A DNA stretch of 64,000 nt. Origin: an uncultured Aequorivita sp. (GTDB lineage Bacteria > Bacteroidota > Bacteroidia > Flavobacteriales > Flavobacteriaceae). Position 1 is the stretch's first letter, and each line of letters starts with the position of its first letter. The translations under genes were made by a program, and so were the position numbers. The stretch lies in NCBI GenBank assembly GCA_937125455.1, contig CAKZLK010000043.1:124001-188000 (forward strand), given 5' to 3'. Positions 49,004 to 57,658 of the stretch are shown one piece after another. The notes below the pieces were generated by a model. It ran no database searches. It was not told the DNA's origin and was given only the letters and a program-made list of their open reading frames with translations.

Positions 49004-49080
49004 TAACCTTTACCTAACACTATGATGAAGAATTGGTAATGACTAATTAACACCGACTTTACATTGTGCGAGTTCCTTTG
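49004..49080 (+). promoter_or_regulatory. Pho-box-like 11-bp repeat array and promoter of the TonB receptor gene
   Basis: Heptamers TAACCTT (49004), TAACACT (49015), TAATGAC (49037), TAACACC (49048) and TTACATT (49059) all start in an 11-bp register; the slot at 49026 is degenerate. They begin 73, 62, 40, 29 and 18 bp before the TTTG (49077-49080) of a weak -7 element TTCCTTTG. The 7+4 arrangement is that of PhoB/PhoP boxes; the binding protein is inferred, not shown. Confidence 0.6.
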
Positions 49081-49103
49081 CACAAATAAATCAAACGACA
49101 AAA

Positions 49104-51929
49104 ATGAAAACAATTATTAAAGTTTTATTCTTCTTTTTAACCTCCATTTCAATAGCGCAAACAGGCTCTATTGTTGGAAAACTAACCGATAAGGACTACA
49201 ATAACGAACCTTTACCTTTTGCAAATATTTTCCTGAAAGGAACTACGCAAGGGGTAACTTCAGACATTGATGGATTGTATTCTTTAGAAAACATTTCTCC
49301 TGGAACCTATACCGTGGTTTACAGTTTTGTTGGTTATGAAACCGTTGAAATTCCTGATGTTAAAGTAATTGCAGATAAAGTAACAAATATTGACGTACCA
49401 ATGGGTGCAAGTGCTGCCGCTTTAGATGAAGTGGTAATTAAAACCACAACCCGCAGAGAAAGTGCTGTTGCATTATTGCTAGAACAGAAAAAAGCTGTTG
49501 GCATTACACAGTCTATTGGCGCAGAAGATCTTTCAAGAAAAGGTGTTGGCGACGCCGAAGGCGCTGTAACCAAAGTAACTGGAATAAAAAAACAAGCTGG
49601 AATAAAAAACGTATTTGTTAGAGGTTTGGGCGATCGTTACAATTCTACCACTTTAAACGAACTTCCGCTTCCTTCAGAAGATCCTGAATACAAAAACATT
49701 TCTTTAGATTTTTTCTCTAGTGATGTTATTGAAAGTGTAGGGATAAACAAAACGTTTTCTGTGCCGCTATATGGAGATGTTGCCGGAGCTAACATTAATA
49801 TTGTTAGCAAAGAGCTTACCGGCCCTGGAAATTTACAATTTTCAATTTCGCCAGAAGTGAATTCACGGGCTATCGGAAAAAATTTCTTGATAATGGACAA
49901 CGCCAAGTACATTGGCAACATTTACAATACTCATGTTCCTATTACAGATTTGAACATACACGCTTTTGACAATGAATTTAAACCAAATACACAAAACGCA
50001 CAGCTTAACTCCAGCTACTCTCTTTCTGGTGGAAAGCGTTTCGATATTGGGAAAAATAGGTTGAGTCTTTTTTTTGTAGGAAATTTTGACAATAAATACG
50101 AGTACCGAAAAGGAGCTTCAGATAGAATAAATGCTGCTGGAGGATTTAACCAACAGTTTCAAAGGACTGAATTCAATTACAACGTTTCAAAACTGGCGAT
50201 GGCAAATATAAAATTCCGTTTTCAGGAAGGCGATTATATTGCCGCTAACAGTATGTTCATCAAAAACAATAGCCAAAGCGTTGCTGATTATTATGGGCTA
50301 AAAGCAGGTCTTACTGAAAATGACGAACCTGGAAATCCAGTTCGTGCTTTAATTAGAAGACAGCAGGAAAACGAAAACAATCTTTTTGTAAACCAGCTTT
50401 TAACTTCACTTACGCTAACTGAAAAATTGAGCTTGGAAGCTGGAGCTTCATACAATACTATCCGTGGTTACGAACCAGACCGAAGAACCAATACCTATGT
50501 TATTGATGTTAATGCTGATGTTGCAAGAGCTGCTTCAGGTAGTGCACTAAACAACCGTTTTTACTCCAACCTTGAAGAAAACGATTTGGCTGGAAAGCTT
50601 TATTTGGATTATGCCTTAAACGGAAAAAACGAAGACAGTAAAAACAGCAAGATCCGTTTGGGCTATAATTACAGAGATACGGACAGAACTTTCAGTTACA
50701 CCCAAATAAACTACATTTTTGACAGTCCAGCTGTTGTTGACATTGACAATCCAGATACTTCTCTATTTAACCAACAGTCTTTAAATGAAGGAATCTTCAG
50801 ACTTACCACAAACCGTGGGGACGGTCGTGATGGAAAAGATCCTTTCATTCCATTCACTTATGACGGGACCAGAACAATCCATTCAGGTTTGGGAGAAATA
50901 AGTTATGATTTTTCTAAAAGCTTTTCAGCAAACGTAGGTGTTCGTTACGAGAAAGTGAAACAGGAAGTTAATTTTGATACTAACCTAGCATCAACTAACG
51001 ACCCAAATACGGATCCTTCACTGATTGATGAAAATTTCATTCTTCCAAGTTTTAATTTGAAGTACAACTTCAATGATAACAGTATTGTACGCTTGGCCGG
51101 AAGTAAGACCTACACTCTTCCACAATTTAAGGAAGTAGCTCCGTTTCTTTATGAAGATGTAAGCTTCAACAGTTTTGGAAATCCAAATTTATTAACAGCA
51201 GAGAATTACAATTTAGACTTAAAGTACGAATATTACTTCAGCGCAGGTGAAATTGTTGCAGTTACAGGTTTCTATAAGAACATCAAAAACGCCATTAACC
51301 GTATTGAGGTAAATTCTGCAGCAGGGGAGCTTTCTTATGTAAATACTGGTGATGCAAATATTGCTGGAGTTGAACTGGAATTGAGAAAGAATATTCTGAA
51401 AATTTCAAATGACTCAAATACTGAAAAAACCTTGACTTTCGGATTGAACGCCTCCTATTTATATTCAAATCAAAAATTGGAAGACGTTCCAACGGATAAT
51501 CTTACTGTTCGTTTCACCAACAAAGAAGACGAGCTAGAAGGTTCTTCACCATTCATTTTAGGTTCAGATTTAACACTGAATTTGAAAAAGAAAAATAGCG
51601 GGATTACAAGCTCCGTGGTTTTCAACTACAACAGCAAGAGTATATACTCCCTAGGAACTGGTGGAGACGATGCAAATCCAGGTTCAGGAAAGAACAATAT
51701 TATGTTATCTGCCATTCCAACTTTAGATTTCATCAACAAAATTGCCATCAATGAAAACCTTGGAATCAAACTTAACATTAAAAACATATTAGATCCTGAG
51801 TATAAATTGACTCAAGATGTAAATAATATTGGAGTGCCAAATGCTTCACTTCCCGATGGACAGGAAGTTCCCGTAGAAACCTATAAAAGAGGTGTGGTAT
51901 TTAGTGCAGGTGTTTCCTATTCATTCTAA
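49104..51929 (+). CDS. TonB-dependent receptor with carboxypeptidase-like domain
   Basis: 941 residues: signal peptide (to about 18, ISIAQ), a CarboxypepD_reg-like domain (about 22-105, GSIVGKLTDKDYNNEPLPFA), a plug (about 135-240, GVGDAEGAVTKVTGIKKQAG and NVFVRGLGDRYNSTTLNELP) and a 22-strand-type barrel ending VVFSAGVSYSF. No SusD partner. The next gene encodes a beta-helix lipoprotein behind a promoter of the same architecture, and both precede phosphate porin and transporter genes. I infer uptake of a phosphorus-containing compound; the substrate is not shown by the sequence. Confidence 0.9.
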   Translation: MKTIIKVLFFFLTSISIAQTGSIVGKLTDKDYNNEPLPFANIFLKGTTQGVTSDIDGLYSLENISPGTYTVVYSFVGYETVEIPDVKVIADKVTNIDVPMGASAAALDEVVIKTTTRRESAVALLLEQKKAVGITQSIGAEDLSRKGVGDAEGAVTKVTGIKKQAGIKNVFVRGLGDRYNSTTLNELPLPSEDPEYKNISLDFFSSDVIESVGINKTFSVPLYGDVAGANINIVSKELTGPGNLQFSISPEVNSRAIGKNFLIMDNAKYIGNIYNTHVPITDLNIHAFDNEFKPNTQNAQLNSSYSLSGGKRFDIGKNRLSLFFVGNFDNKYEYRKGASDRINAAGGFNQQFQRTEFNYNVSKLAMANIKFRFQEGDYIAANSMFIKNNSQSVADYYGLKAGLTENDEPGNPVRALIRRQQENENNLFVNQLLTSLTLTEKLSLEAGASYNTIRGYEPDRRTNTYVIDVNADVARAASGSALNNRFYSNLEENDLAGKLYLDYALNGKNEDSKNSKIRLGYNYRDTDRTFSYTQINYIFDSPAVVDIDNPDTSLFNQQSLNEGIFRLTTNRGDGRDGKDPFIPFTYDGTRTIHSGLGEISYDFSKSFSANVGVRYEKVKQEVNFDTNLASTNDPNTDPSLIDENFILPSFNLKYNFNDNSIVRLAGSKTYTLPQFKEVAPFLYEDVSFNSFGNPNLLTAENYNLDLKYEYYFSAGEIVAVTGFYKNIKNAINRIEVNSAAGELSYVNTGDANIAGVELELRKNILKISNDSNTEKTLTFGLNASYLYSNQKLEDVPTDNLTVRFTNKEDELEGSSPFILGSDLTLNLKKKNSGITSSVVFNYNSKSIYSLGTGGDDANPGSGKNNIMLSAIPTLDFINKIAINENLGIKLNIKNILDPEYKLTQDVNNIGVPNASLPDGQEVPVETYKRGVVFSAGVSYSF

Positions 51930-51939
51930 AAAATACAAT

Positions 51940-51994
51940 TAACAGAACGATAATATTCACCTAAAAGTAACGCAACAGGGCATTTGTTTCTTTG
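51940..51994 (+). promoter_or_regulatory. Pho-box-like repeat array and promoter of the lipoprotein gene
   Basis: Heptamers TAACAGA (51940), TAATATT (51951), TAAAAGT (51962) and CAACAGG (51973) are spaced exactly 11 bp and lie 51, 40, 29 and 18 bp before the TTTG (51991-51994) of TTTCTTTG. Same register as the neighbouring promoters; individual copies are more degenerate here. Confidence 0.5.
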
Positions 51995-52023
51995 CATCAA
52001 ACTTTAAAACAAAAACAAACACA

Positions 52024-53292
52024 ATGAAAAAAATCCTTTTATCAAGCTTTGTAATCGCAACATTAGCCCTTACTGGCTGTAGTAAAGATGATAGCCCCAC
52101 ACCTGTGGCAGCTACTTGTAATGATGGAGTTCAAAACGGCGACGAAACTGGCATCGATTGTGGTGGTTCCGCATGTGAGCCTTGTGCAGTGCAAGCTGAA
52201 AAAGACGGTATAATCGCTTCTCAAGATGATCCAGATTTAGATCCAACAGATCTTAAAGGTGATGTTACAGCTGATGTATGCCTTACCAATGACACCGTCT
52301 GGATCCTTAGTGGCCCATTAAGCGTTAAAAATGGTGCAACTTTATGCGTTGACCCAGGAACAACTATTAAAGCTATCGCTGGAGGGACCAATGTCTATAT
52401 AGCAATAGAACAAGGCGCAAAAATTAATGCCGCTGGAACAGCAACATCTCCAATTAGATTTACTTCAAACGCAGCAAATCCAAGATCTGGAGATTGGGGC
52501 GGTATTCTATTGATAGGAAAAGCTCCTATTAGTGGCGGTGGAACAGCAACTACAGAAGTTGTTGATTTAACGTATGGTGGAACTTCTCCTAATGACAACT
52601 CGGGAGTTATGAAATATGTTGAAGCTTCATACACTGGCGCTCGTATCAATGGAGACAAGGAATTTAACGGAATCACCTTTTATGCAGTTGGAGATGCAAC
52701 AGTAGTTGAAAACGTAGCCGTATTTTATGGCGATGATGACGCCTACGAATTCTTTGGCGGAACCGTAAATGTGAAAAACTTAATGTCCGTAAATATTAAG
52801 GATGATATGTTTGACTGGACGCAGGGATGGACTGGTACCGCAACAAACCTTTATGGTTTAAGAGAAGCTAACTATACTTCTATTACAGAAGATCCTCGTG
52901 GATTGGAAGGTGATGGAAACCTTGACGGAAATTCTCCTGGTGATTCAGGTCAGTCAAATCCAACAATTAATGGATTGGTATTGATAAATGCTGGGGTTAT
53001 TGAAATGTCAGATATGATAAAAGTACGAAGAGGTAGTGGACTTACACTAACTAATGCATACGTAGGATTTGCAAATGCAAGCGCAAAAGCTGGAGATTTT
53101 ATAGACCTAACAGATTCTAAAGGGGATGCAAAAGGTTCTGCAGTTAATCTTTCTGTAATGGGAGATTCTTCAACTGGTCTTGATATAACAGATATCAAGA
53201 CAACTACTGGAGCAACTATAAATGTAACAGATGGAACCGTTCCAACAGTGAGCAGAGATTTGTTCAACTGGACTGGCTACGTTTTTGAATAG
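52024..53292 (+). CDS. Secreted beta-helix lipoprotein partner of the TonB receptor
   Basis: 422 residues. Lipobox LTGC at about residue 19. A Cys-rich segment NDGVQNGDETGIDCGGSACE with CPC-like spacing (about 36-60) resembles short metal-binding or EGF-like repeats in Bacteroidota surface proteins. The rest is a right-handed parallel beta-helix pattern (GATLCVDPGTTIKAI, GDWGGILLIGKAPISG, GTVNVKNLMSVNIKDDM). Related proteins commonly pair with TonB receptors of this type. It could be a surface ligand-binding or hydrolytic partner; no catalytic residues were identified. Confidence 0.7.
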   Translation: MKKILLSSFVIATLALTGCSKDDSPTPVAATCNDGVQNGDETGIDCGGSACEPCAVQAEKDGIIASQDDPDLDPTDLKGDVTADVCLTNDTVWILSGPLSVKNGATLCVDPGTTIKAIAGGTNVYIAIEQGAKINAAGTATSPIRFTSNAANPRSGDWGGILLIGKAPISGGGTATTEVVDLTYGGTSPNDNSGVMKYVEASYTGARINGDKEFNGITFYAVGDATVVENVAVFYGDDDAYEFFGGTVNVKNLMSVNIKDDMFDWTQGWTGTATNLYGLREANYTSITEDPRGLEGDGNLDGNSPGDSGQSNPTINGLVLINAGVIEMSDMIKVRRGSGLTLTNAYVGFANASAKAGDFIDLTDSKGDAKGSAVNLSVMGDSSTGLDITDIKTTTGATINVTDGTVPTVSRDLFNWTGYVFE

Positions 53293-53313
53293 ATAAGTGA
53301 ATTAGCAAAAAAT

Positions 53314-53348
53314 AAAAACCCCGGTTTCTTTCGAAATCGGGGTTTTTT
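53314..53348. terminator. Bidirectional terminator between the lipoprotein and MORN-type genes
   Basis: Stem AACCCCGGTTTC / GAAATCGGGGTT (12 bp, one G-T pair), 4-nt loop, flanked by A and T tracts between converging genes. Confidence 0.85.
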
Positions 53349-53364
53349 TATAAAATCTTTATTT

Positions 53365-53724
53365 TTAATTCACTACCACTTGGGTGTCTGAAGATTTCCA
53401 AGTAACTACTTTGGATAAACGAGCATCCATATAGCTTACTTCTTTAATATCGTTATTTGTAAAGAAATACCAAGTTCCTACTTTTTCACCATTATTGTAT
53501 TCTGCTACCGCAGTTTTGTTTCCATTTATGTCATAGCTTACCCATTCACCAGTAAGTTTGTTTTCTTTAGTATAATATCCAGTTTGTGCAACTATTCCAT
53601 TATCGTGATAGATTGTGGCCTCTATTACATCACCGTCTAAAAAATAAGTGTTTGTTTTATTTTCTTGAGCCAAAGTCACAGAAGTTATCAAAACGATTGC
53701 TAAAAGTGAGATTATATTTTTCAT
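53365..53724 (-). CDS. Exported MORN-like (YwqK-type) repeat protein
   Basis: 119 residues with a signal peptide (to about 19, VTLAQ). Three or four repeats of the MORN/YwqK pattern: IYHDNGIVAQTGYYTKENKL, TGEWVSYDINGNKTAVAEY, NNGEKVGTWYFFTNNDIKEV. Such repeats are often annotated as YwqK antitoxins, but export makes an antitoxin role unlikely here; a surface or periplasmic scaffold role is more plausible. It has a perfect -7 element and its upstream region contains an 11-bp repeat array. Confidence 0.72.
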   Translation of the reverse strand: MKNIISLLAIVLITSVTLAQENKTNTYFLDGDVIEATIYHDNGIVAQTGYYTKENKLTGEWVSYDINGNKTAVAEYNNGEKVGTWYFFTNNDIKEVSYMDARLSKVVTWKSSDTQVVVN

Positions 53725-53753
53725 AATATAGTATTTTAAGATTTTGGAATATT

Positions 53754-53808
53754 CAAAGTTACAAAATTAACCATTATGAAACTATTACATAACGTTATGA
53801 TAACATTA
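53754..53808 (-). promoter_or_regulatory. Promoter of the MORN-type gene overlapping an opposed 11-bp repeat array
   Basis: Minus-strand -7 element TAACTTTG at 53754-53761 is an exact TAnnTTTG. Directly upstream, read on the plus strand, are TAACCAT (53768), AAACTAT (53779), TAACGTT (53790) and TAACATT (53801), four copies in perfect 11-bp phase but pointing away from the MORN gene. A 12-bp palindrome CATAACGTTATG is at 53788-53799. The array may therefore act on this promoter from the opposite orientation. Confidence 0.45.
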
Positions 53809-53869
53809 ACCTTGTATTTATCTGATTGCAAGATGTTTAAATTTATATAAAATGATAAACAACGTAAGT

Positions 53870-53924
53870 TAATGATTTGATAAAGGTAAATTTACACTAA
53901 TTAAACATCTAGGTATTTTCTTTG
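53870..53924 (+). promoter_or_regulatory. Pho-box-like repeats and promoter of the candidate small RNA
   Basis: TAATGAT (53870), TAAAGGT (53881), TTACACT (53892) and AAACATC (53903) lie 51, 40, 29 and 18 bp before the TTTG (53921-53924) of TTTCTTTG, the same -7 octamer used at 51987-51994. No protein-coding gene follows before the terminator at 53987-54019. Confidence 0.45.
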
Positions 53925-53928
53925 TAAC

Positions 53929-54019
53929 TGCCTTAAAAGAGGCAATTTTAAAATCGTTTAGTTTTTGTCGACTAGATTTTAAAACTGGGCTGCGTTTCAA
54001 TATGCAGCCCTTTTTTTTT
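53929..54019 (+). ncRNA. Candidate small RNA with three stem-loops
   Basis: A region without an ORF that carries a promoter-like element ending at 53924 and an intrinsic terminator. Predicted transcript about 90 nt. Stem 1: TGCCT / AGGCA (53929-53944). Stem 2: TTTTAAAATC / GATTTTAAAA (53946-53984), 10 perfect pairs, with a TAGT / ACTA pair inside. Stem 3 is the terminator. The loop of stem 2 includes TTTAGTTTTTGTCG (53957-53970), the exact reverse complement of 54086-54099 at the expected 5' end of the porin mRNA. An alternative is a 5' leader with an attenuator for the porin gene. Confidence 0.55.
53987..54019 (+). terminator. Strong intrinsic terminator upstream of the porin gene
   Basis: GGGCTGC / GCAGCCC stem (7 bp, G-C rich, 10-nt loop) followed by nine T residues. 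No annotated plus-strand gene precedes it within 690 bp, which is the reason for proposing a small RNA or attenuated leader. Confidence 0.85.
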
Positions 54020-54048
54020 CTTAAAAATACTAATTCTATACCATTTCT

Positions 54049-54081
54049 TAACATTCACGTAACATTAAAAGCGGTTCTTTG
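54049..54081 (+). promoter_or_regulatory. Pho-box-like repeats and promoter of the porin gene
   Basis: Two identical heptamers TAACATT at 54049 and 54060 (11-bp spacing), 29 and 18 bp before the TTTG (54078-54081) of GTTCTTTG. A further near-copy TACCATT starts at 54039. Expected transcription start about 54086, with the ATG at 54111. Confidence 0.65.
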
Positions 54082-54110
54082 TCATCGACAAAAACTAAAA
54101 ACGACTTTAA

Positions 54111-55337
54111 ATGCAACGCAAGCACTTCCTTTTCAGTGTCTTGGCGCTTTCTTTTATTACTACATTCTCCCAGGAAGCACCCAAAAATCCTTTTTACTTT
54201 AAGTGGGACAACGGCTTTAAACTAGAAAGCCAGGACAAACAATTCGCTTTAAAGTTTGGAGGTCGTATTATGATCGATCACGCCTACTTTTTCCAAAATG
54301 ATGAATTGGACACCAATTATGGCCCATTACTCTCCAAGAGTGGAACAGAGTTTAGGCGCGCACGTATATTTATGTCCGGAACCGTTTATAGCAATGTTGA
54401 ATTCAAACTACAGTTTGACTTTGCAGGCGGGGAAGTTGCTTTTAAAGATATGTTTATTGGCATTACGGATATTCCCAAAATAGGCAATATTCGCATCGGC
54501 CACGTAAAAGAGCCGTTCCGCTTAGATGCTTTGACTAGCAGTAAATATATAACTTTTATGGAGCGTGCATTTAATCAAGATTTTTCGCAGGATCGTAACA
54601 ATGGTATATTAATATTCAATGATTTTTTTGGAAAGCGTCTTTCAGCACAGGCTGGTGCTTTTAGAATGGCCACCAACAACGGAAATGATATACTTGCTGA
54701 TGACGGATATGCGCTTACTGGAAGAATTACGGGATTAGCACTCCAAAATACCGAAAAAAAACAATTGCTTCATCTTGGTGTAGGATACAGTTATAGAAAA
54801 CCAGAAAATAAAATCTACAATGTTGCTTCAAGGCCCGAAGCACATTTAGAACTAAAATATATTAATACTGAAAATATTCAAAACGTAGACAATATTAACC
54901 TCGCAAATTTTGAAGCAGCTTTCGTTAGTGGACCTTTATCATTTCAAGGAGAATATTTAACCGCAACAGTGAATAATAATATTGAAGCTACTTTTAAAAA
55001 ATATAACTTTGAAAGTTACTATGGGCAATTAAGCTACTACATAACCGGTGAAAGCAAAAATTATAAAGGTTCATACGAAGGTTTTGACAGAGTAAAGCCC
55101 AAAAAGAATTTTGGCGGAAAAGATAAAGGCACTGGAGCCTGGGAAGTGGCACTGCGTTATTCAAGTTCAGACCTTAACAATAATGATGTTTTGGGAGGGC
55201 AACAATCTGATATCACTTTAGGGTTAAATTGGTATCTAAATCCAGTAACCAGAATAATGATAAATCATGTGTGGGCTAATATAAAAGATAAAGGCAACGC
55301 AAGTATCTTGCAAGGTCGAATACAAATAGATTTTTAA
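54111..55337 (+). CDS. OprP/OprO-type phosphate-selective porin
   Basis: 408 residues: signal peptide (to about 20, TTFSQE), then a 16-strand-type barrel of the Porin_O_P family. Conserved segments include FALKFGGRIMIDHAYF, GTEFRRARIFMSGTVYSNVE, FKDMFIGITDIPKIGNIRIG and HVKEPFRLDALTSSKYITFM, and it ends LQGRIQIDF. Such porins pass phosphate or polyphosphate across the outer membrane and are induced by phosphate starvation in Pseudomonas. The next gene is a PiT phosphate transporter, which supports the assignment. Its expression is probably controlled by the repeats at 54049-54066. Confidence 0.88.
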   Translation: MQRKHFLFSVLALSFITTFSQEAPKNPFYFKWDNGFKLESQDKQFALKFGGRIMIDHAYFFQNDELDTNYGPLLSKSGTEFRRARIFMSGTVYSNVEFKLQFDFAGGEVAFKDMFIGITDIPKIGNIRIGHVKEPFRLDALTSSKYITFMERAFNQDFSQDRNNGILIFNDFFGKRLSAQAGAFRMATNNGNDILADDGYALTGRITGLALQNTEKKQLLHLGVGYSYRKPENKIYNVASRPEAHLELKYINTENIQNVDNINLANFEAAFVSGPLSFQGEYLTATVNNNIEATFKKYNFESYYGQLSYYITGESKNYKGSYEGFDRVKPKKNFGGKDKGTGAWEVALRYSSSDLNNNDVLGGQQSDITLGLNWYLNPVTRIMINHVWANIKDKGNASILQGRIQIDF

Positions 55338-55347
55338 ACAATACAGT

Positions 55348-55391
55348 TAACAATTTGGTAACAATCAATCCTATTTAATATGGGAAATTTG
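55348..55391 (+). promoter_or_regulatory. Pho-box-like repeats and promoter of the PiT gene
   Basis: Two identical heptamers TAACAAT at 55348 and 55359 (11-bp spacing), 40 and 29 bp before the TTTG (55388-55391) of GAAATTTG. Start codon at 55415. The porin gene lies directly upstream with no terminator seen, so read-through is also possible. Confidence 0.65.
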
Positions 55392-55414: not shown

Positions 55415-57658
55415 ATGGATAATATTTATTTATTAATGATAGTTGCCCTCTCAGCTTTAGCCATAGCAGATTTGGTTATTGGAGTTAGTAATGACGCTGT
55501 GAACTTTCTGAACTCAGCTATTGGCTCAAAGGCAATTTCTTTTAAAACCATCCTGATAATTGCGAGTTTGGGAATTTTCATTGGCGCTGTCTTTTCCAGC
55601 GGAATGATGGAAGTGGCTCGAAAAGGAATCTTCGTACCTGGTGAATTCTATTTCGACGAAATCATGATAATTTTTATGGCAGTAATGATTACCGATATTC
55701 TGCTGCTCGATTTTTTCAACACTATTGGTTTACCAACATCCACAACCGTTTCTATTGTTTTTGAACTTTTGGGAGCTGCCGTTATTATGGCATTAATTAA
55801 AATTGGCCATTCAGATACCGAGACAATTTCTTCAATAACAAAATATATTAATACAGACAAAGCCCTGGAAATTATTTCAGGAATTGTTATTTCGGTAGGT
55901 GTAGCCTTTTCGGTCGGGATTATAGTGCAATATATTTCTAGACTTATTTTCACTTTTCATGCTGAACAAAAAATGAAGTATTTTGGCGCCATCTTCGGGG
56001 GGGTAGCTTTAACTGCAATTAGCTACTTCATCTTTATGAAAGGGCTAAAGGGAACTCCTTTTTACGGAGATTTTAAAGGTATTGTTGAAAATGATACTTC
56101 GCTTATAATTGGCGTAAGCTTTGTTGTCTTGACCGTTTTCTCACAGCTCTTTATGATGATATTTAAAAAGAGTATTCTTATAATAGTAATTGCCGTGGGT
56201 ACTTTCAGTCTTGCCTTGGCCTTTGCAGGAAATGATTTGGTAAACTTTATCGGGGTTCCAATGGCGGCATATCATAGTTTTGTTGATTGGTCCGCATCAG
56301 GGGTAGCTGCTTCAGAGTATAGTATGAATAGCCTTGCCGAACAAGTTCCAGCAGAACCATTGCTGCTTTTTATTGCAGGGGGTGTTATGGTACTTACTCT
56401 ATGGTTTTCCAAAAAAGCTAGAACGGTTTCCGATACCGAAATAGACCTAGCCCGCCAAGGCGAAGGTCATGAAAAGTTTAGTCCGAATATGCTTTCCAGA
56501 TTTTTGGTTAAATCATCAACACAGCTATCAACTTATTTTAATTATATCATTCCTCAGCCACTTCAAGAGAAAATAGACAAACGATTTGAAAAACCGGTTG
56601 TTAACCTACCAAAGCACAAAACCTATGAGCTGCCTGCATTCGATATGATTCGCGCATCCATTAATCTTGTTGTTGCTGGTATCTTGATCGCAACTGCCAC
56701 ATCTATGAAACTTCCGCTTTCCACAACGTATGTAACATTTATGGTGGCTATGGGTACATCATTGGCCGATAGAGCATGGGGCCGAGAAAGTGCTGTTTAC
56801 AGAGTTGCTGGAGTACTTAACGTGATTGGTGGTTGGTTCTTTACGGCTTTTGTAGCCTTTGCTGCGGCAGGGACATTAACATACCTAATTTTTATTGGAA
56901 GGGGCGCAATGATTGCTGTATTGTTGTTATTGGCCATTCTACTATTGGTAAGAAATTATCTGTCACATAAAAATAAAGTCAAAATTAAATTGAGTAAAAG
57001 CGGTTTAAAGAAAACCGAAAGCAAAACTGTGCAAGGTATTATTCAGGAAAGTGCAGAAAACATAAGCAATGTAGTTTCGCGCTCAAACAAAATATATAGC
57101 GATATGCTTCGCGGTTTGGCCAAACAAGACACTAAAAAACTCAAAAAGAGCAAAAAAGGTGTAAACAAACTGAATGATGAAGTAGAAGAATTGCGCGACA
57201 ATATTTTCTATTTTATTAAAAACCTTGATGACACCAGTGTTCGTGGAAGCAATTTCTATATTGTGATTCTCGGTTACTTAACTGATGTAGTTCAATCTTT
57301 GGAATTTATTTCAAAAGCCAGCTATAAGCATGTTAACAACAACCACAAAGCACTTCGTTTCAACCAAATAAAAGATCTGCAGGAAATAGACCAACACCTG
57401 GAAGAGCTTTTTAATGAAATCGAGGATATTTTCCATAAAAAAGAATTCCAGCGAATTAAAAACGTCCTTAATAAAAAAGAAGAGGTTTTCGCTAGTCTTT
57501 CAAACAAGATTGAGAAACAAATAGCCCGAACCCGAACTGAAGAATCTAGTCCTAAAAACACGACTTTGTACTTCAGCCTGCTACTTGAAACCAAAGATTT
57601 GGTGACGGCTTTAATGAATTTGATGGAGGAGTATTACTCTAGTTATAAAAAGGCCTAA
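55415..57658 (+). CDS. PiT-family inorganic phosphate transporter with C-terminal PhoU-like domain
   Basis: 747 residues. The membrane part (about 1-525) has two PiT halves; the signature GVSNDAVNFLNSAIGSKAIS is at about 23-42, and the second half contains TSMKLPLSTTYVTFMVAMGT with an inward-facing repeat. From about 545 to 747 a helical region (SENISNVVSRSNKIYSDML, KKGVNKLNDEVEELRDNIFY, HLEELFNEIEDIFHKKEFQR) resembles PhoU/DUF47 and probably regulates transport. Inner-membrane phosphate uptake driven by cations. Together with the porin it makes a two-membrane phosphate route. Confidence 0.92.
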   Translation: MDNIYLLMIVALSALAIADLVIGVSNDAVNFLNSAIGSKAISFKTILIIASLGIFIGAVFSSGMMEVARKGIFVPGEFYFDEIMIIFMAVMITDILLLDFFNTIGLPTSTTVSIVFELLGAAVIMALIKIGHSDTETISSITKYINTDKALEIISGIVISVGVAFSVGIIVQYISRLIFTFHAEQKMKYFGAIFGGVALTAISYFIFMKGLKGTPFYGDFKGIVENDTSLIIGVSFVVLTVFSQLFMMIFKKSILIIVIAVGTFSLALAFAGNDLVNFIGVPMAAYHSFVDWSASGVAASEYSMNSLAEQVPAEPLLLFIAGGVMVLTLWFSKKARTVSDTEIDLARQGEGHEKFSPNMLSRFLVKSSTQLSTYFNYIIPQPLQEKIDKRFEKPVVNLPKHKTYELPAFDMIRASINLVVAGILIATATSMKLPLSTTYVTFMVAMGTSLADRAWGRESAVYRVAGVLNVIGGWFFTAFVAFAAAGTLTYLIFIGRGAMIAVLLLLAILLLVRNYLSHKNKVKIKLSKSGLKKTESKTVQGIIQESAENISNVVSRSNKIYSDMLRGLAKQDTKKLKKSKKGVNKLNDEVEELRDNIFYFIKNLDDTSVRGSNFYIVILGYLTDVVQSLEFISKASYKHVNNNHKALRFNQIKDLQEIDQHLEELFNEIEDIFHKKEFQRIKNVLNKKEEVFASLSNKIEKQIARTRTEESSPKNTTLYFSLLLETKDLVTALMNLMEEYYSSYKKA

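Follow-up and report, generated by a model that had tools for sequence, protein, structure and literature searches.

The DNA considered here is a stretch of 64,000 nucleotides (nt) from an uncultured Aequorivita sp., hereafter the window (contig CAKZLK010000043.1, positions 124,001 to 188,000). It carries a 6.4-kb island in which five promoters, those of a TonB-dependent receptor, a putative lipoprotein, a candidate small RNA, a phosphate-selective porin and a PiT-type phosphate transporter, share heptamers resembling TAACAnT that are repeated in a strict 11 base pair (bp) register. The features of the island are listed below, each distance being that between the initial base of a heptamer and the first T in the TTTG of the -7 element.

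49004-49080, + strand: TonB-receptor promoter, with heptamers TAACCTT (49004-49010), TAACACT (49015-49021), TAACACC (49048-49054) and TTACATT (49059-49065), at 73, 62, 29 and 18 before TTTG 49077-49080
49104-51929, + strand: TonB-dependent receptor with a CarboxypepD_reg-like domain (PF00593, PF13715, PF07715)
51940-51994, + strand: lipoprotein promoter, with TAACAGA 51940, TAATATT 51951 and TAAAAGT 51962 (51/40/29) before TTTG 51991
52024-53292, + strand: putative lipoprotein adjoining the TonB receptor, no Pfam match
53365-53724, - strand: small MORN-like protein (PF07661 below cut-off)
53790-53807, either strand: sixth box TAACGTT-ATGA-TAACATT, near-palindromic, between the MORN-like gene and the small RNA
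53870-53924, + strand: small-RNA promoter, with degenerate heptamers TAATGAT 51, TAAAGGT 40, TTACACT 29 and AAACATC 18 before TTTG 53921
53929-54019, + strand: candidate small RNA with a 5' hairpin, a middle stem and a terminator; its ends are inferred
54049-54081, + strand: porin promoter, with exact TAACATT at 54049 and 54060 (29/18) before TTTG 54078
54086-54098, + strand: porin leader CGACAAAAACTAA, immediately ahead of the start codon; its 13 nt are the exact reverse complement of the small-RNA loop
54111-55337, + strand: phosphate-selective porin O and P (PF07396, E-value 2.6e-52)
55348-55391, + strand: PiT promoter, with exact TAACAAT at 55348 and 55359 (40/29) before TTTG 55388
55415-57658, + strand: PiT-type phosphate transporter of the PHO4 family (PF01384, E-value 7.1e-27)

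Heptamers with at most one mismatch to TAACAnT were counted 14-80 bp before the chosen TTTG of the five promoters. Twelve out of 15 belong to a single one of the 11 residue classes, 18+11n before TTTG, and the remaining three are spread over three different classes; the exact heptamers all lie within the register class (5/5). Across 3000 dinucleotide shuffles, the fullest class reached at most 5 near heptamers (12 observed) and at most 3 exact ones (5 observed). The phased repeats are real and beyond chance. Chance or AT-richness as their cause (the window is AT-rich, with a guanine plus cytosine content, GC, of 36.8%) is ruled out by these shuffles and by the other promoters of the same loci. 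The positions that an earlier note had given upstream of the five genes were found again, the small-RNA promoter being the weakest of the five with a single heptamer within one mismatch (TTACACT at 29). When this promoter was aligned with those of relatives (16 loci), TAA, TAA and T were invariant at 11-bp steps.

The five -7 elements keep TTTG and are devoid of the TA of TAnnTTTG in 5/5 cases, as had also been claimed. The note had described control promoters with a complete TAnnTTTG as free of such heptamers. Among 37 gene starts scanned, TAnnTTTG is located upstream of five; in-register heptamers are absent from the four that lie elsewhere than in the island (2413, 4865, 21734, 38209), and the fifth, that of the MORN-like gene at the 53790 box, has one. 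With a looser anchor (any TTTG), two further window promoters hold one in-register heptamer each. The two identical pairs (54049/54060 and 55348/55359) are the sole exact copies of TAACANT-n4-TAACANT in the 3,734,439-base genome. Both exact matches, and four of the 35 genome matches with at most one mismatch, lie inside the island, all on the + strand; among the other 31, 26 were inspected and 17 of these were inside an open reading frame (ORF) of at least 100 amino acids (aa). Over 28 genomes, the exact pattern occurs 44 times in the genus: 25 matches are in the window or in annotated islands, three (G005, G014, G019) go with a PiT-type sequence and 16 are unassigned. Seven of the latter (L200-L206) showed no similarity to reference proteins.

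Conservation was measured with a blind rule that ignores the heptamers, in the window and 33 related loci (L167-L199). The anchor was the TTTG nearest to the start codon. A promoter was counted only if it had a TTTG 15-90 nt ahead of the start that was also preceded by at least 40 nt of upstream sequence, and length and locus served to label the second porin type. In the 99 Pho-type promoters 205 of 248 heptamers were in register, versus 23 of 103 in the 93 others, many of which are no real promoters because their anchors are any TTTG. Sixteen of these 23 belong to the MORN-like gene at its shared box (10) or to two genes of G045 (6). At least two in-register heptamers were found in 79/99 Pho-type promoters versus 3/93 others, two of the three being phosphate-type genes of G045. 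The spacing of heptamer pairs was 11 bp in 93 cases, followed by 33 bp (23) and 22 bp (15). Conversely, TAnnTTTG was present in 5/99 Pho-type versus 39/93 other promoters, 17 of the 39 being those of the MORN-like gene. The rows of the best-register alignment are illustrative only, because the TTTG chosen as anchor there was the one that scored best for the register, and the counts just given come from the blind rule; in that alignment the PiT rows L168 and L169 are wrongly anchored, the core there being TTTC.

Each promoter has its own set of positions in the genus: 73/62/29/18 for the receptor, 51/40 for the lipoprotein, 29/18 for pstS and 40/29 for PiT, some units having two mismatches. The receptor positions are also found in L197, L198 and L199 of other genera. 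For the lipoprotein promoter (11 aligned rows), unit 40 is within one mismatch in 11/11 and unit 51 in 8/11. The porin box lies at 29/18 or 40/29 depending on the species, a shift of one 11-bp turn, and two loci have all three units. It is retained where the porin is replaced by a protein without BLAST match to the first at 1e-8, one of which was tested and belongs to PF07396. The pstS genes of G004, G011 and G013 have the same promoter layout as the porin. A distant receptor-lipoprotein pair in G013, G018, G012 and G022 (receptor 27-30% identical), whose gene order is reversed, keeps 73/62/29; its unit 18 has two mismatches in three of them and is absent in G013.

The register extends to other lineages. 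G032, G062 and G063, from other genera, retain the receptor array, weaker in G063, and the PiT box is also present in G032 and G062. In G045, which belongs to another family of the same order, the units lie at 62/51/40 for pstS, 40/29/18 for a sodium/phosphate (Na/Pi) cotransporter and 51/40/29 for a weakly porin-like protein; by Pfam, the last two genes are a Na/Pi cotransporter with PhoU domains and a beta-barrel porin below cut-off. Twelve named Flavobacterium genomes were scanned for a heptamer pair followed by TTTG within 8-36 bp, which gave 62 matches, and loci were obtained for 30 of them. Out of 26 matches with both heptamers strict, 20 lie at 28, 29, 39 or 40 among 29 possible distances, and the matches amount to few independent cases because many are orthologous copies. 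One match family recurs in 10/12 genomes; in the five read, the downstream ORF encodes a 214-aa protein (PF01865, DUF47, in the one scanned) with a DUF47-Pit box at 39/28 or 40/29, and the ORF after the DUF47 gene is one that we take to be PitA-like. Another match family precedes a TonB receptor (Pfam on L329). In addition, a Porin_O_P gene of F. aquicola has units at 40/29/18 and a PHO4 gene of strain NRK F7 has them at 40/29. Finally, relatives of the PiT transporter were found class-wide in 17/197 genomes, own included. Of the 16 other loci, 15 were read, two from the window's family and the rest from several other families, and L394 (E-value 9.7e-4) was not used; these promoters had no part in the definition of the motif. 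Two of the 15 lack a TTTG by the rule. In the other 13, 20 of 24 heptamers were in class, whereas 5000 base shuffles averaged 1.0 and never exceeded 7.

The best TIGR02154 match of the genome (G000:C17:134432-135085) combines a receiver with a winged-helix domain. Its identity to the Flavobacterium PhoB whose gene lies next to the boxed receptor is 73-76%, and it has the RT(I/V)DVHIR(K/R)LR core in common with the Escherichia coli PhoB domain. Residues of this core read the box in PhoB and would do so here. In 10/10 Flavobacterium genomes, the best TIGR02154 match is divergent from a TonB receptor, and in the 9/10 of these loci that were scorable 29 of 34 receptor heptamers are in class, typically at 73/40/29, with a unit at 18 in L349, L352 and L353. 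In G045, a box lies between phoB and pstS. Homologs of PhoB adjoin pst or the boxed receptor. The relatives of F. johnsoniae bear the box at the phoB-linked receptor, and from their neighbourhood these receptors would be orthologs of Fjoh_0545; F. johnsoniae itself is outside the 80 loci obtained.

Two published systems connect these genes with phosphate. In F. johnsoniae, the PhoBR operon (Fjoh_0541-0549) contains, like the island, a TonB receptor with a lipoprotein and an OprP; the receptor Fjoh_0545 and the lipoprotein Fjoh_0546 are tabled as increased on phosphate depletion, with fold changes (FC) of 8.02 and 9.91, together with phoB (FC 3.06) (PMC8115612). The putative lipoprotein of the window would, to judge from its place, resemble the FII lipoprotein Fjoh_0546. 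In parallel, the same gene types as here are reported to be PhoB-dependent within the PhoRB regulon of Bacteroides fragilis (pstS/C/A/B, that is pstSCAB, the PiT permease BF3715 and the porin O BF0375), and gel shifts showed binding of PhoB to the pstC promoter (PMC3547664).

On this evidence, the phased repeats are very probably a Bacteroidota Pho box bound by PhoB. The unit is approximately (T)TAACAnT, arranged head to tail with an 11-bp period, usually two to four per promoter, with about seven conserved and four free bases; the distances between units, like those from the units to the -7 element, are whole helical turns, and the arrays occur at genes for phosphate uptake in several genera of the Bacteroidota. 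The earlier note had proposed that a PhoB-like regulator acts here on a phosphate-starvation regulon, and this is supported, enrichment of the repeats having been found in relatives. The expectation of phased repeats at phosphate genes was borne out, in the same register, for the porin, PiT, pstS, the Na/Pi cotransporter, DUF47-Pit and the phoB-linked TonB receptor, and failed for PhoX and phoB. We infer that PhoB is the binder and that the island genes respond to phosphate. Phosphate shortage would lead the kinase PhoR to phosphorylate PhoB, whose subunits would line up head to tail, each on its own 11-bp unit, along the helix face that presents them to RNA polymerase. Bound PhoB could then substitute for the missing promoter contacts by class II activation, the mode known from E. 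coli PhoB. The regulon of the island would comprise the TonB receptor with its lipoprotein, the phosphate porin, the PiT transporter and the small RNA, in a genome without detected pstS, and the small-RNA loop, antisense to the porin translation start, may tune porin output.

Several observations weigh against a Pho box of this kind. The pattern is not over-represented overall: it has 35 matches with at most one mismatch in the 3.73-megabase genome against 71 for a reversed control, 44 exact matches against 42 in the 28 genomes and 62 against 58 in the 12 Flavobacterium genomes. No in-register heptamer was found in 13/99 Pho-type promoters, and sequences from one genus are not independent. Elsewhere, the receptors of G030, G058 and G060 are without a clear in-register array, those of G036, G037, G039 and G046 have two-mismatch pairs or none, the F. 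aquicola receptor (L350) has neither a clear in-register array nor a TTTG and was left unscored, and in-register heptamers are missing from 4/15 of the class-wide PiT loci, two of the four being without TTTG. The PhoB candidate scores 215.8 bits, below the NCBIfam TIGR02154 cut-off of 296.2, which is passed by 0/28 genomes, own included; none of 10 Flavobacterium genomes passes it either.

At PhoX (PF05787) loci, a box within one mismatch was found in 0/30 and one with two mismatches in 5/30; these loci are a mixed set. The phoB promoters of the genus (L048-L069) contain a conserved TAACAAT 44-46 before TTTG, outside the register, in 15/18 loci, the other three being two without anchor and one without heptamer. 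Because this heptamer is out of register, autoregulation of phoB by the register architecture is unsupported, and it is perhaps the site of another regulator. A box at PhoX or at phoB is not an obligatory feature of every Pho regulon. Expression data also contain discordant cases. The F. johnsoniae OprP Fjoh_0542 is not induced (FC -1.3) (PMC8115612). In B. fragilis wild type, BF3715 and pstC/A/B are not listed among the genes changed at low phosphate, and a second porin O, BF2289, and the Na-dependent phosphate transporter BF4351 are down at low phosphate (PMC3547664).

Binding of the arrays by another response regulator of the OmpR family, rather than by PhoB, is unlikely. Regulators of this family commonly bind 11-bp direct repeats, a second PhoB-like regulator is encoded in the genome (G000:C17:181449-182105, E-value 4e-58; 30 matches in all) and the candidate PhoB is below the NCBIfam cut-off. 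However, the box occupies the phoB/receptor intergenic region in Flavobacterium and the phoB/pstS intergenic region in G045, and the boxed gene types are PhoB-dependent in B. fragilis. It is very unlikely that a single promoter was copied to the porin, pstS and the receptor, the repeats marking common descent and not necessarily a regulator site. The porin and pstS promoters do have spacer and core sequence in common (CACGTAACAT...CGGTTCTTTG), yet the number and position of units (73/62/29/18, 51/40, 40/29, 29/18), the spacer and the core vary while the register is constant, and it also holds in other families and at other genes. A protein-free action of the phased TAACA tracts, whether through curvature of the DNA or as an upstream element that RNA polymerase uses at AT-rich promoters, is extremely improbable: 11-bp phasing of AT-rich tracts can bend DNA and the GC of the window is low, but the other promoters of the same loci lack phased tracts, and conservation extends to the C of TAACA and to the distant units at 73/62, neither of which curvature needs.

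As a candidate Pho box, the element resembles known ones. The E. coli Pho box likewise consists of 11-bp units in head-to-tail order, each with seven conserved bases and four that are less conserved (PMC4415409). Its core is CTGTCAT, unlike the (T)TAACAnT followed by the flavobacterial TTTG found here, where there are also often more than two units and several whole-turn offsets. The PhoP box of Bacillus subtilis has TTAACA-type repeats, nearly the same core word, and multi-unit arrays, in another phylum and with another type of promoter. Within the Bacteroidota, no box seems to have been defined for B. fragilis, because the words motif and consensus are absent from the main text of PMC3547664; promoter and motif are absent from the main text of PMC8115612 on F. 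johnsoniae, and the term Pho box from that of PMC8812569. No published Bacteroidota Pho box or operator sequence was found in a literature search covering few subscription papers. Putative Pho boxes have been reported near plcP in marine bacteria (PMC4796936). Hence 11-bp phased Pho boxes are already known, and what seems new is the probable Bacteroidota box, its strict register at several offsets and the candidate antisense RNA. Flavobacteria take part in phosphorus recycling on land and at sea, in soil and seawater, and a box so defined, with its strict register, would make Pho regulons predictable from sequence. The box also provides a lead to the function of uncharacterised receptor-lipoprotein pairs, and a rule, open to test, on the cooperation of an activator with the TTTG promoter of the phylum.

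The candidate small RNA has a middle stem TTTTAAAATC/GATTTTAAAA, whose loop holds TTAGTTTTTGTCG (53958-53970), and a terminator made of GGGCTGC/GCAGCCC and a T-run. No Rfam match was obtained at the gathering threshold, the only match in the window being a tRNA. Covariation is seen in the middle stem and the terminator (94.0% of cells paired, 11/19 pairs changed on both sides, 0/500 shuffles as high), mostly in the latter. The conserved promoter, the covarying structure and the terminator predict an intrinsically terminated small RNA.

In the genome, the 13-mer shared by its loop and the porin leader occurs exactly at these two sites alone, and eight copies differ from it by one mismatch. The loop core was present in 23 of the 24 loci examined, namely 20/21 genus loci together with L192, L197 and L198, and GACAAAAACT is retained in the leader in 22 of these 23, in spite of the differing porins; the leader of G021 (L185) has diverged. 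A portion of the same complement, CAAAAACTAAA, occurs in the pstS leaders of G004, G011 and G013. Among the 20 genus loci read, G001 (L176) is the sole one without a porin and is also without the small RNA, as if both had been lost together. Loop and leader are paired in 88.8% of cells, a level reached by 9/500 shuffles; covariation between the two molecules is weak (2 cells changed on both sides, both in L198; 37/500 shuffles reach it), so that pairing is likely, short of proven.

A wider proposal is offered tentatively, at somewhat less than even confidence: a Bacteroidota-wide Pho box, placed at any whole turn from a TA-less -7 element, may also drive a small RNA that pairs with the porin start, in an incoherent feed-forward loop. 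PhoB would switch on the porin gene together with its antisense brake, which would limit the phosphate porin of the outer membrane after a first burst. In relatives having pst, the small RNA might pair with the pstS leader too.

The 53790-53807 box, absent from the earlier note, is conserved in the genus loci having the MORN-like gene and is readable on both strands. The -7 element of this gene is TAACTTTG, and the TAACGTT situated 40 before its TTTG is the 53790 box read on the minus strand. It is possible that the MORN-like gene, with its consensus TAACTTTG promoter, is a sixth member of the regulon, or that the box is shared with the small-RNA side.

The 20 genus loci that were read share the island order (dgt, receptor and lipoprotein, MORN-like gene, small RNA, porin, PiT), though not without variations: some islands lack the MORN-like gene, G001 lacks the porin, and in G004, G011 and G013 pstS plus four further ORFs lie between porin and PiT. 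In the window genome, searches with PF12849 (the phosphate-binding protein PstS) and PF05787 (PhoX) gave no match. In L168 (G013) and L192 (G030), pstS directly follows the porin, at the place held by PiT in the window genome. It looks as if one uptake module can take the place of another while the type of promoter in front stays the same.

Two other sequence families were noticed. In L321 and L332, from two Flavobacterium genomes, TAACAATTT(C/G)GTAACATTGAA...CTTAACATTG is located upstream of aspS-like ORFs; these strongly box-like sites are out of register and separated from the next ORF by 156 and 498 nt, and a transcript that is not annotated may be what they serve. In L322, L330 and L344, a conserved palindrome TTGTATATACAA comes after TAACA repeats, upstream of a protein of 151-153 aa resembling a MarR-type regulator, and is probably an autoregulatory operator unrelated to Pho.

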